Below, one piece after another: positions 1 to 2,893 of a DNA stretch of 64,000 nt. The translations under genes and the position numbers were made by a program. This DNA is from Candolleomyces eurysporus (taxonomy: Eukaryota; Basidiomycota; Agaricomycetes; Agaricales; Psathyrellaceae), in assembly GCA_027579435.1 (NCBI GenBank), contig JANBPK010000730.1:186001-250000 (forward strand). The letters run 5' to 3'. The notes below the pieces were generated by a model that did no database searches, had not been told where the DNA came from, and worked only from the letters and a program-made list of their open reading frames with translations. Every line of letters begins with the position of its first letter. The stretch's first letter is position 1.

Positions 1-265
1 TTGGAGGACAACATCAAAGCGCTGGATGTCGCCCTCACCAAGGAGCACATTGACTTCTTGGAAAGCATTTTACCCTTTGACAAAGGGTTCCCTGCCAGCG
101 AAATCGCGAGTACCACTTTCCTGTCATCATCTTGTAAAATCGGGGCTTACCACTCCATGTCAGGGTGACGGTACCACGCCCATCCCCATGATCCGTGCCT
201 GCGGATGGACCACTGACTGGGCTGCTGCTGCTCCAATCTCCGGCTCCAGCGTTGAACTGAACTAG
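1..265 (+). CDS. Aldo/keto reductase, C-terminal end (partial)
   Basis: This is the 3' end of an NADPH-dependent aldo/keto reductase of the fungal aryl-alcohol dehydrogenase / norsolorinic-acid-reductase-like group; the start lies upstream of the window. The first exon (1-105) reads NIKALDVALT and FLESILPFDKGFP, the usual helix and 'PFDpGFP' stretch near the C-terminus of these enzymes. The second exon (164-265) begins GDGT, the expected continuation of family members reading ..FIGDGT, and ends at a TAG at 263-265. The two exons join in frame only if the intron is 106-163, giving a GC donor (GCGAGT) and a CAG acceptor. The GT at 110 leads to an immediate stop. The family assignment is secure. 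The substrate cannot be told from this tail. Confidence 0.8.
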   Translation, partial: WRTTSKRWMSPSPRSTLTSWKAFYPLTKGSLPAKSRVPLSCHHLVKSGLTTPCQGDGTTPIPMIRACGWTTDWAAAAPISGSSVELN

Positions 266-546: not shown

Positions 547-1323
547 CTAATCAAGCTCGTCAAGGGATCGAGCCTCAACCTCCATAATCTCATCCGCATC
601 CAACTCGCGCAAGCCGAGGGAGTGAGCCGTAGAGCTGACCTTGTCCGCAACCCTCAACACCTTTCCTGCTACGCCCTTGGCCTTGCTGAGGAATCGACCG
701 AGCTTGAATGGTTCACGCGCGTCCAGCTCGTCGAAATCTTCAAAGTCGCGCTCCTCCAACTCAAAGTCGGAGGGATCGAACTCCCTCTCCTCGAAGTAGA
801 CGCCGTCGTCGAGCTCCCTCAGCCCGAAGCTCTGAGCGGTGCTCGCAACCCGGTTGGCGACGCGCAAGCCCTTGCCGACAGCGCCCCGAATCTTCTTGAA
901 AGCCCGGCCCAGCTTGAAGGGCTCTCGGGCCTGGAGGTAGGCGAGTTCGTCCTCGTCGAGCTCGCGGACGTAGACATTGCCTTCCTCGTCACGGCGGAGG
1001 AGGAGGGGTGCAGCCTTGAGTGCGATGGGTGCAACCTTCTTGACGACTCGGCCGATGCTTCGGAATGCCTTCTTGAAGCTGAAGGGGTTGGGCTCGCGGG
1101 CTTCGATGTCGAGCACGTCGGGGTTGTCGATCGAGCGAGCAGCGACGCTGTAGATAGAAGAAATTCAATCAGTCGTTGGCCTCGGTGTGTAGAAAACCCA
1201 TGTATGATATACTCACGATTCAGGAGCGATGTGCCTGTGGGCGTGGTGGGGATGAGTGGGAGCAGCAAGGACGGGGCCAACGATGAAGGCGGCGGCGACG
1301 AGCAAAGTGGATGCTTTAACCAT
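547..1323 (-). CDS. Secreted precursor with three cationic peptide modules (new-looking family)
   Basis: Two exons (1217-1323 and 547-1147) encode 235 aa. Residues 1-20 form a signal peptide ending VLA, followed by a His-rich stretch. The remainder is three modules. Each begins Ala-Arg-Glu-Pro, continues into a Lys/Arg/Gly/Ala-rich core with almost no acidic residues (about 58-88, 113-145, 183-215), then Arg-Glu-Leu-Asp and a strongly acidic linker. Cores 2 and 3 both start FKLGR and are 33 residues long; core 1 starts after Glu-Pro-Asn-Pro. Inference: cleavage after Arg, then dipeptidyl-aminopeptidase removal of X-Pro pairs, would release cationic amphipathic helices reminiscent of cecropins, with linkers neutralising charge in the precursor. 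No cysteines stabilise the cores. Function could be antimicrobial, cytolytic or signalling; I know no named fungal family. A TATA box lies about 150 bp upstream. Confidence 0.8.
610..708 (-). other. Predicted cationic core peptide 3
   Basis: Precursor residues 183-215, again 33 residues between Arg-Glu-Pro and Arg-Glu-Leu-Asp, with seven Lys/Arg and one Asp. It is clearly homologous to core 2 (shared FKLGR start, LRVA centre, STA and GL end), pointing to internal duplication of the module. Confidence 0.55.
820..918 (-). other. Predicted cationic core peptide 2
   Basis: Precursor residues 113-145, bounded by Arg-Glu-Pro upstream and Arg-Glu-Leu-Asp downstream. It is 33 residues long with eight Lys/Arg and no acidic residue, and begins FKLGR. 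Lys/Arg recur every three to four positions, as expected for one face of a helix. Confidence 0.55.
991..1083 (-). other. Predicted cationic core peptide 1
   Basis: Precursor residues 58-88. It follows two X-Pro dipeptides (Glu-Pro-Asn-Pro) after an Arg, contains about nine Lys/Arg and no Asp/Glu, and ends at a dibasic Arg-Arg. The C-terminal boundary is uncertain: it could run on about eight residues to the Arg-Glu-Leu-Asp signal. Confidence 0.5.
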
Positions 1324-2893
1324 GATGAATGAAGTGGATTTAAAAATTTGGTGTGAGGATAGAGTGATTGATGAAGAGACAGAAGCGTTCAACGCCGACT
1401 GTGTTGTAGATTGTGAGGGAGTAGTAGTTGCGAGACCAGCTCTGAGGAGAACAGAACGAGCACACCGACCCTTTTATACTCCCAAAGACAAAGGCATAGA
1501 CAGGTCTGTCAACCGGAAATGATCACCAACGGTGAGATTGGAAGCTGTCCCAAAATAGAACGTTATTGCCTGCGAATCGTATGTTGGCGGATAGCAATCT
1601 ACATTGACATATGTTTCAATACGGCGTTCATTGGACACTGCCATTTCGGAACTGAATACTTACCAGACTCGTTGAATCCGCACTGGTTCCCCCGCGTTCA
1701 CATAGATCCCGGAGATACTTGACCGTAGGTTTTCCCTACTCTCCGTCATTTTTGGCAGAGGGTCTTAGAAATCGGGCGCCCTCACACCGGTAATGGTTTC
1801 GAATAAGCGGCCAGTCAGCACCAGGGGGATCTGCCTTTTGATGCACGGATCCGCAACGTACATTGGAGTAACTTTGGTGATCTCGGATCTAGGGGAGTGG
1901 CAGTGAGTACGAACTGATAGCTGATGCCTAACAGCATGGCAGCGGGCGGTGCCCGTCGTCTACGCCGCCTCGACAACCACTGAAGAGTTCAGCCTCATCA
2001 CCATGGATACGATGGAATGTGGGCATGGGTACTGAGTACTTGCCTCGGGAAGTCCTCGATTACTGGCAGAGAAGACTGATAAGAGGACGATGGGCGTCGA
2101 TCCATACCACTGAGTATCTTGCTATGCTTATCAAATCCATGTGTTGGATAGTATGGCATAGATAGATGGCAGGCTCAATCACAGGCGTTCAAACCGTGGT
2201 TCGCCCTGTGAAACCGTCTTCGACGGAGGGCAGAAAACAGTCACGTATGGAAGAGTGGGTGATTCAGAACGAATGAGATACCAGCCGGCGAGATGTGAGG
2301 TGATTGACGCGATGAACACTGCACTGAAGCCCCAAAAAATCAGTACATCCAAGGATTTGGTTCACCAAAAACGCCGCACCAGATACCATTCGTAAGTTAG
2401 TTCACAAGCGATAAGCACCTAGTGTTCAAACTTTATCAGAAAGGTCCATCTGCGGAGCAGGGAGTTGAGGTCAAGAAGATCAGAATCATATGATACCCAA
2501 CGCGGACACGGACGTTGGTTGAGCGGTGAGGATGTTCAAACGTCGAAATCTCGTAATTGCTCCGGAAATGCCATCCTCAGCGTCGAATTCGAAGATCAGA
2601 AGTTTTGTCATGAGTCACTTCAGAACGAGAGCACTGGAAAGTTACTCTCCCGTAGCCAGACTGACGATTCTTGTGTATCGATACGGTTAGTAAGAACACG
2701 TTCATCAGTACTGGAAAGTGGGGTCAGAACAAGTTTTACAATGGAATGATAGAAGATTACTCACCTTTTGTGCCTAGATCTGAGTAAGCCAAGATGCCGC
2801 TTCAGAGCTTATTCGAGTGATGAAGACGCGAAAACCCGAGTCATCATAGAGTACATAGAAGCTACATCAGGAGAGACATCTGGAAGCTGTGCG
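1324..2893. other. Intergenic stretch, no gene seen
   Basis: The first ~200 bp are the promoter and leader of the peptide-precursor gene. The remainder to 2893, downstream of the RPC19 stop, holds only short unconnected open frames on both strands. I could not link any of them by splice sites into a recognisable protein. Confidence 0.5.
1471..1478 (-). promoter_or_regulatory. TATA box of the cationic-peptide precursor gene
   Basis: On the minus strand this reads TATAAAAG. It lies about 150 bp upstream of the ATG at 1323, a reasonable distance for a basidiomycete gene with a 5' leader. Confidence 0.5.

Follow-up and report, generated by a model that had tools for sequence, protein, structure and literature searches.

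A mushroom gene predicted to encode a secreted precursor of several cationic, helix-prone peptides

Organization of the peptide gene and its product

The window analysed here is a 64,000-nucleotide stretch (C1008:186001-250000) of the 65.9-Mb assembly of Candolleomyces eurysporus, a member of the Psathyrellaceae in the order Agaricales. A peptide gene lies at positions 547-1323 on the minus strand, and its conceptual splice yields a predicted secreted protein of 235 residues, all of which are identical to the database protein H1R20_g3151 (P0001, hereafter g3151) from the same species. The features of the gene, in window coordinates, are as follows.

1469..1478, minus strand: TATA-like box TATAAAAGGG, picked out by eye some 150 bp before the ATG; putative function
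1217..1323, minus strand: exon 1, signal peptide and start of a His-rich pro-region; splice identical to P0001
1323-1264, minus strand: predicted signal peptide, residues 1-20, a hydrophobic leader kept in relatives that are complete there
1148..1216, minus strand: intron of 69 nt, GTGAGT...CTACAG, of the GT..AG type, phase 2 (exon 1 is 107 nt)
547..1147, minus strand: exon 2, remaining coding sequence including the stop codon; deposited protein identical
991..1095, minus strand: core 1, residues 54-88, EPNP + 29 residues + RR, charge +8; model helix 60-85
925..990, minus strand: acidic linker 1, residues 89-110 (DEEGNVYVR / ELDEDELAYLQAR), cut at Arg before Asp/Glu
817..924, minus strand: core 2, residues 111-146, EP + 33 residues + R, charge +8; model helix 115-142
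715..816, minus strand: acidic linker 2, residues 147-180, divided into three sub-segments with the ends EER, EER and DAR
607..714, minus strand: core 3, residues 181-216, EP + 33 residues + R, charge +6; model helix 185-212
550..606, minus strand: acidic tail, residues 217-235, with the C-terminus DELD

The removal of 1148-1216 that the original prediction had proposed agrees with the deposited H1R20_g3151. In two relatives, P0002 and P0003, a single open frame runs across the aligned splice junction, on contigs of 935 and 965 bases that we take as putative transcripts. The hydrophobic leader, MVKASTLLVAAAFIVGPVLA, is kept in relatives, which is consistent with the proposed signal peptide and with the secretion signal expected of KEPs, and the spliced 235-residue protein contains no cysteine, as had been claimed. 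On the plus strand, a 263-residue open frame (541-1332) lies antisense to the peptide gene and is probably a shadow of its codon use.

Charge-alternating modules of g3151

After the signal peptide and the His-rich pro-region, nine Arg residues, each directly before Asp or Glu (R↓D/E), delimit the segments of g3151. Cutting at these sites gives three segments of 35-36 residues with charges of +8, +8 and +6, five intervening segments of 9-13 residues with charges of -2 to -5, and a 19-residue tail of -8; after the predicted trimming, the cores would be 29, 33 and 33 residues long with charges of +7, +8 and +6. These charges confirm the proposed alternation of cationic cores with strongly negative linkers: the spread of net charge over 20-residue windows is 4.65, and the maximum among 5000 shuffles is 4.46. 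Arg precedes Asp or Glu nine times in g3151 compared with 4.2 expected, a number attained in 45 of 5000 shuffles. Core charge and remaining charge are loosely matched (r = -0.36).

The three repeats originally described hold only in part. Cores 2 and 3 clearly repeat each other, being identical at 23 of 36 positions with a score reached by none of 2000 shuffles, whereas core 1 weakly resembles core 2 (7 of 2000 shuffles reach the score) and has no significant similarity to core 3 (360 of 2000). The protein is therefore better described as two true repeats plus a third module of like kind than as three equal repeats. Core 1 represents a core type of its own; as judged by eye, the relative P0012 has three cores of this type and one of the type of cores 2 and 3.

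Predicted helices

Hydrophobic-moment z-scores of g3151 cores 1-3 are 3.9, 2.3 and 2.6. Among 250 unique trimmed cores of the family described below, the moment peaks at 100 degrees (0.304 compared with 0.170 in shuffles) with no excess over shuffles at 160-180 degrees, and 56% of the 206 cores of 20-45 residues exceed shuffles at p < 0.05. An AlphaFold model built from 31 sequences places one predicted helix in each core (60-85, 115-142 and 185-212) and further putative helices in the signal peptide and in linker 1 (101-110), but with low confidence and no confident overall fold (mean pLDDT 52.7, pTM 0.23). The moments, together with the one modelled helix per core, are in line with the proposed helix-prone cores, and the sequence features as a whole support the proposed layout of a secreted multi-module precursor of linear cationic peptides.

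A family spread mainly among mushrooms

With E values of up to 1, the first protein search gave a list of 31 proteins, including g3151 and two paralogues. A profile of nine members then listed 78, of which 67 were new, giving 98 proteins including g3151, and a third search with the gene model on contig C230 (see below) listed eight, seven of them new, for 105 overall. Nineteen of the 98 carry an organism name, and 18 of these are from mushrooms (Candolleomyces, Coprinellus, Ephemerocybe, Coprinopsis cinerea, Cyclocybe, Gymnopilus, Pholiota and Psilocybe) and one from an ascomycete; the named mushroom genera besides Candolleomyces are ones that we take to be Agaricales. The profile (A2) included P0031 (E 0.15 in the first search), so that the N/Q/H-rich branch of the second search rests partly on this protein, and the most distant members, P0093-P0098 (E 2.6e-4 to 0.62), are provisional. 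A C-terminal -LD, mostly as DELD or DDLD, ends 93 of the 98 proteins and is kept while the cores change. In g3151 it is encoded at 550-555 of the window.

In agreement with the original prediction, a known globular family did not emerge. None of the 31 first-search proteins reaches a Pfam cut-off (scanned up to E 1 for g3151 and up to E 0.05 for P0002-P0031), the names below threshold including Moricin, Stomoxyn, Dermcidin and Peptidase_C53 among others, and NCBIfam gave no consistent match on the 31, the best being 3.3e-4 in one member. A Pfam scan of ten proteins outside the 31 gave matches over the cut-off for DUF502 (P0099-P0102), Clavanin (P0105) and GAP1-C (P0063), as well as Lsm_C, Phage_int_SAM_4 and DUF5987 in P0071; apart from GAP1-C, no single stretch passes alone in these matches, which we read as summed repeats. 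The precomputed Pfam annotation of the other 64 new proteins of the second search is empty. DUF502 (PF04367), for instance, scores 31.6-34.3 against a cut-off of 23.8 bits in four of the seven third-search relatives with no stretch passing alone, and has no match in the Pfam scan of g3151. Since added-up repeats pass whole-protein cut-offs in this way (DUF502 four times, clavanin once), automatic annotation of the family may mislead.

Two further candidates were set aside. Homology to ribosomal protein L7/L30, suggested by the name that P0005 bears at its source and by PDB matches at E 0.21-0.27, is rejected, as P0005 has no Pfam match up to E 0.05 and the AlphaFold model of g3151 shows no confident fold; the PDB match to a designed protein, 7dgu (E 0.015), is taken as composition.

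Processing signatures at the module boundaries

In the 98 proteins, which are related and non-independent so that this and the following signature counts are not significance tests, Arg precedes Asp or Glu 1128 times where composition predicts 464, and Lys does so 27 times where 286 are predicted. The boundary residue is thus Arg and not any base, and the choice is specific, since at all other positions of these proteins Lys outnumbers Arg (1335 vs 1067). A hydrophobic P4 or a dibasic P2 accompanies 1038 of 1123 R↓D/E sites, as against 342 of 1053 other Arg and 579 of 1348 Lys. P4 is L, I, V, F, M or Y, a set wider than aliphatic, at 946 of the 1123 sites (273 of 1053 other Arg), and P2 is basic at 115; both features occur together at 23 sites and neither at 85. 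In the 30 strict proteins, the same P4/P2 rule fits 274 of 285 sites vs 119 of 339 other Arg. With Arg at P1 and Leu or another aliphatic residue at P4, the boundaries look like LxxR substrates. Kex2 prefers Arg at P1, Leu or an aliphatic residue at P4 and a variable P2 according to the available text of PMC8528282, and, as judged from sequence, the family boundary context is that of the extended Kex2 motif, LxxR, given there.

Segments cut at R↓D/E and sorted by length and charge comprise 266 cores, 682 linkers and 98 internal segments in neither class. Pro occupies position 2 in 219 of the 266 cores compared with 5 of the 682 linkers, so the cores begin with the X-P dipeptide of Ste13 (DPAP) substrates; two such leading dipeptides are found in 31 cores and three in 2. 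Where a core opening with D/E-P has a further Pro within its first eight residues, it falls at position 4 (33 cases), at position 6 (3) or at odd positions (2), and over the 105 proteins Pro follows the nearest Arg at a distance of 2, 4 or 6 residues in 357, 90 and 30 cases, vs 35, 25 and 33 cases at distances of 1, 3 and 5. The X is often Ser, Asn or Ala in the seven C230-related proteins, with Pro retained. Within cores KR occurs 19 times compared with 60.3 +/- 7.2 in shuffles; RK is common (114 vs 60.2), KK is slightly raised (133 vs 103.7), and RR is not avoided (37 vs 40.5). After thinning to below 70% identity the KR deficit is 13 vs 35.5, and below 40% (46 cores) it is weaker, 4 vs 9.7 +/- 2.9. 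An inner KR or RR is present in 45 of 251 unique cores. The same processing signatures appear in the 30 strict proteins alone, and they persist in 39 others once 29 N/Q/H-rich proteins are removed.

Candidate processing enzymes are present in the C. eurysporus genome, which has three matches to P_proprotein (kexin-type) and one to DPPIV_N. Three is also the number of KEX2 genes given for C. cinerea in the text available of PMC9769878.

Core turnover and gene copies

Nine close relatives of g3151 keep the linker and tail pieces at 78-91% mean identity (0.91 and 0.79 for the two pieces of linker 1) and core 1 at 81%, and cores 2 and 3 at averages of 60% and 63%, with core charges of +3 to +9. 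Core 3 is largely replaced yet cationic in P0006 and P0009 (6 and 3 of 24 aligned residues kept), as is core 2 in P0008 (9 of 34 residues kept), and P0007 and P0010 have a shorter core 2 that is changed by half (15 of 28 and 13 of 28). P0006 and P0009 have Lys in place of the acid after boundary 180, and some boundaries of P0003, P0007 and P0010 fall in alignment gaps. Conserved cores, as originally expected of orthologues, are therefore found more as regards the positive charge than as regards the letters: core charge and most boundaries are kept, cores 2 and 3 vary more than the linkers, and in three of the nine relatives one core is largely exchanged for another cationic sequence. Core residues thus change more readily than charge or cut sites do, a pattern common in defence peptides.

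Further family loci were found in the same assembly.

C1008:179816-180445, strand not given: g3148, family copy just left of the window
C1008 about 178337-178940, strand not given: g3147, family copy left of the window
C230:10490-12425 (L027:1490-3425), minus strand: gene model of at least eight exons with seven introns, all phase 2, 496 aa
C215:55327-55937, strand not given: gene model of 161 aa with a single core
C42 near 111195-111314, strand not given: fragment with linkers similar to the family

Weaker remnants lie on C1008 near 172.4-172.9 and 175.7-175.8 kb, and some boundary Arg are lost in the one at 172.7-172.9 kb. In g3148, a base N in the first core region (L006, about 2599-2945) probably distorts the deposited model P0019. 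The predicted C230 model has eight cores that are near-copies of EPFFRKIFRGVGRVAGSLLGR and a longer ninth cationic segment that may hide another intron. Judged from exon lengths, six of its seven introns interrupt a core at residue 14, always in phase 2, so that every repeat corresponds to one exon unit; on this model, the peptide modules would multiply as exons. The first introns of the C230 and C215 models are phase 2, like that of g3151, and the two predicted proteins end in DELD and DDLD, respectively. Pieces resembling an aldo/keto reductase recur between the peptide gene copies (L005 3858-4172 and 7247-7564; L006 7040-7913; window 1-168), three recognized by Pfam and the others by visual likeness, a pattern that would fit joint duplication of the reductase and the peptide gene.

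Relation to known peptide systems

The original prediction knew no fungal family with this layout, a statement that is not supported, as KEPs and the Candida protein Ece1 share the plan of a signal peptide followed by peptides that Kex2 releases (available parts of PMC6339444, PMC7329392 and PMC9769878). The KEPs of Coprinopsis cinerea, Pleurotus and Lentinula have a signal peptide and several cores between Kex2-type sites, and they share with the g3151 family the X-P/X-A Ste13 motifs, present in some of them, and the occurrence in agaricomycetes (same sources). Unlike them, g3151 has a single Arg before an acidic residue at eight of nine boundaries, cationic helical cores of about 30 residues, and acidic linkers between these. 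The accessible portions of the three surveys give the sites as KR/RR and then KK (PMC6339444), as KR, KK, RK or RR with at least three repeats (PMC7329392), and as KR, RR, KK and RK (PMC9769878). The two clear repeats of g3151 are fewer than the three demanded by two of these screens, as far as their available text goes (PMC6339444, PMC7329392), whereas P0012 and the C230 model have three or more. In place of dibasic KR/RR/KK separators, g3151 contains one KR/RR site, and it would give two fragments by KR/RR cutting and four by KK. As its boundaries do not match the sites that were surveyed, g3151 is unlikely to be in earlier lists of repeat proteins. Four or more KR/RR fragments come from 36 of the 98 proteins, so some members may figure in KEP supplementary lists, and KK gives four in 24 more. 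We file g3151 as a KEP variant, because its proposed working is like that of KEPs and Ece1 but, by the published definition, it lacks two defining KEP features, the repeat number and the dibasic separators.

Other comparisons are more distant. Core 2 has a weak local likeness to insect moricin (PF06451; 14.7 bits, E 0.027; PDB 1x22, E 1.1), and the cut-off of 27.6 bits is reached neither by g3151 (13.5-14.7) nor by P0002 (18.4); moricin being of animal origin, the likeness is likely convergence. The distant relative P0105 scores 23 against a clavanin cut-off of 21 bits through summed repeats, with no single stretch passing. Ece1/candidalysin of Candida albicans is cut at KR sites and is, to our knowledge, without acidic linkers having X-P starts, and Ece1 is absent among the 105 matches listed in the three family searches. 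It is likewise one secreted precursor, giving eight Kex2 peptides (available text of PMC7329392), of which one, 31 residues long, is cytolytic (available text of PMC12153327). Pro-domain effectors have the same extended single-Arg Kex2 motif, LxxR, but lose one pro-domain, whereas the many sites of the g3151 family would give several short peptides (PMC8528282, as far as its accessible text shows). The 2022 mushroom KEP study describes, in the part available, products with single-Arg ends and removal of X-P/X-A motifs (PMC9769878). A literature search found no description of the family, of mostly single-Arg sites, of the charge alternation or of the -LD end, although the supplementary tables of the surveys may list single members, and it found nothing on CC1G_06461. 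The general plan is thus already known from Kex2-processed repeat proteins and Candida Ece1, while the sequence family is apparently unnamed and its cut sites differ from those that earlier surveys sought.

Proposed processing and alternative readings

From sequence-based evidence, namely the architecture, site signatures, helical amphipathicity, family conservation and candidate enzyme matches, we infer actual cleavage, trimming, charge masking, membrane activity and an ecological target as follows. Once the signal peptide is removed from H1R20_g3151, a Golgi kexin-type protease would cut after a single Arg within the motif (Leu/aliphatic/aromatic)-x-x-Arg↓(Asp/Glu), or following RR, and so part the three cationic cores from the acidic linkers. 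A Ste13-type dipeptidyl aminopeptidase would then strip X-Pro, taking EP-NP off core 1 and EP off each of the other two, while a carboxypeptidase of the Kex1 type would take off the terminal Arg, leaving three linear peptides of 29, 33 and 33 residues, charged +6 to +8, that may form amphipathic helices. As long as the precursor stays within the cell that makes it, the acidic linkers would balance the core charge, and the free peptides would target membranes, most likely those of competitors or grazers. Judged by its sequence, g3151 is very probably a precursor cut into cationic helical peptides and, given processing, the freed peptides would probably act on membranes in defence; the whole reading, a Kex2/Ste13-processed precursor of membrane-active linear amphipathic peptides probably directed against competitors, is the one toward which we lean on balance. 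The tandem copies and remnants, which indicate turnover, and the kept core charge count for it. Against it count the acidic P1' of the sites as defined here, whose acceptance by kexin is presumed, the 85 of 1123 off-rule sites, the inner KR or RR of some cores (45 of 251), and the 98 unsorted segments. The same holds for the RR that cores do not avoid, the KR deficit that weakens on thinning, the altered or gapped boundaries of some close relatives, the low-confidence structure model, the lack of antibacterial activity in peptides of other, dibasic mushroom KEPs, and the merely loose match of core and remaining charge.

Peptides cut as proposed might instead be pheromone-like or developmental signals, as suspected for mushroom KEPs with Ste13 motifs, which we consider unlikely. 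Signals usually retain their sequence, and these cores are long (about 30 residues), differ from one another within one precursor, and turn over with charge kept. On the other hand, alpha-type pheromone precursors typically carry X-P trimming motifs, which mushroom KEPs also have, and the three kexin-type matches equal the kex2 number reported for C. cinerea (both in the text available of PMC9769878). It is rather improbable that the products are surface-active or fibril-forming peptides coating aerial hyphae: Rep1 of Ustilago does have the same plan, a secreted repeat precursor cut by Kex2 (available parts of PMC8528282 and PMC7329392), but the cores here have a helical periodicity (peak at 100-105 degrees, no excess at 160-180 degrees) and a high cationic charge.

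An uncut, charge-patterned wall or matrix protein, its own acidic and basic blocks complexed with one another, would fit the alternating charge blocks and a low-confidence model that lacks a fold, yet it leaves unexplained the Arg/Lys contrast of 1128 vs 27 at boundaries, the hydrophobic P4, the X-P register and the scarcity of KR, and appears about as improbable as a hyphal coating. Cyclization as a dikaritin-type RiPP is very improbable. Dikaritins need UstYa, and the genome does have at least 16 UstYa (DUF3328) matches alongside the KEP-like layout of g3151, but among the matches listed none is on C1008, and the three g3151 cores contain neither Tyr nor Cys.

The processed, membrane-active defence precursor allows a wider and more tentative proposal, which may well prove wrong: an undescribed Agaricales class of ribosomal defence peptides, consisting of cationic amphipathic helices of about 18-38 residues that are stored charge-masked between acidic linkers, freed at single-Arg (LxxR) sites by the several mushroom kexins and replenished through tandem duplication of genes and exons. 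Mushroom peptides are known mainly as cyclic and Cys-rich, and such a class would add linear helical peptides to mushroom chemistry, as a counterpart of insect cecropins and moricins and of Candida Ece1. If it exists, it would have escaped characterization owing to the dibasic cuts on which surveys relied, and KEP screens could be widened to LxxR↓D/E sites and X-P starts besides dibasic ones. Synthetic peptides of other, dibasic mushroom KEPs had no antibacterial activity on the bacteria tested, according to the available text of PMC9769878. The same text gives three kex2 genes for C. cinerea and other agaricomycetes vs one in ascomycete knockout strains, implying diversified function, and a large single-Arg substrate family would allow a concrete test of this diversification. 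Among the organism-named members, the one ascomycete protein, P0071 of Clonostachys solani, likewise alternates cationic cores with R↓D/E linkers but has no -LD end, and may have originated by convergence or transfer.
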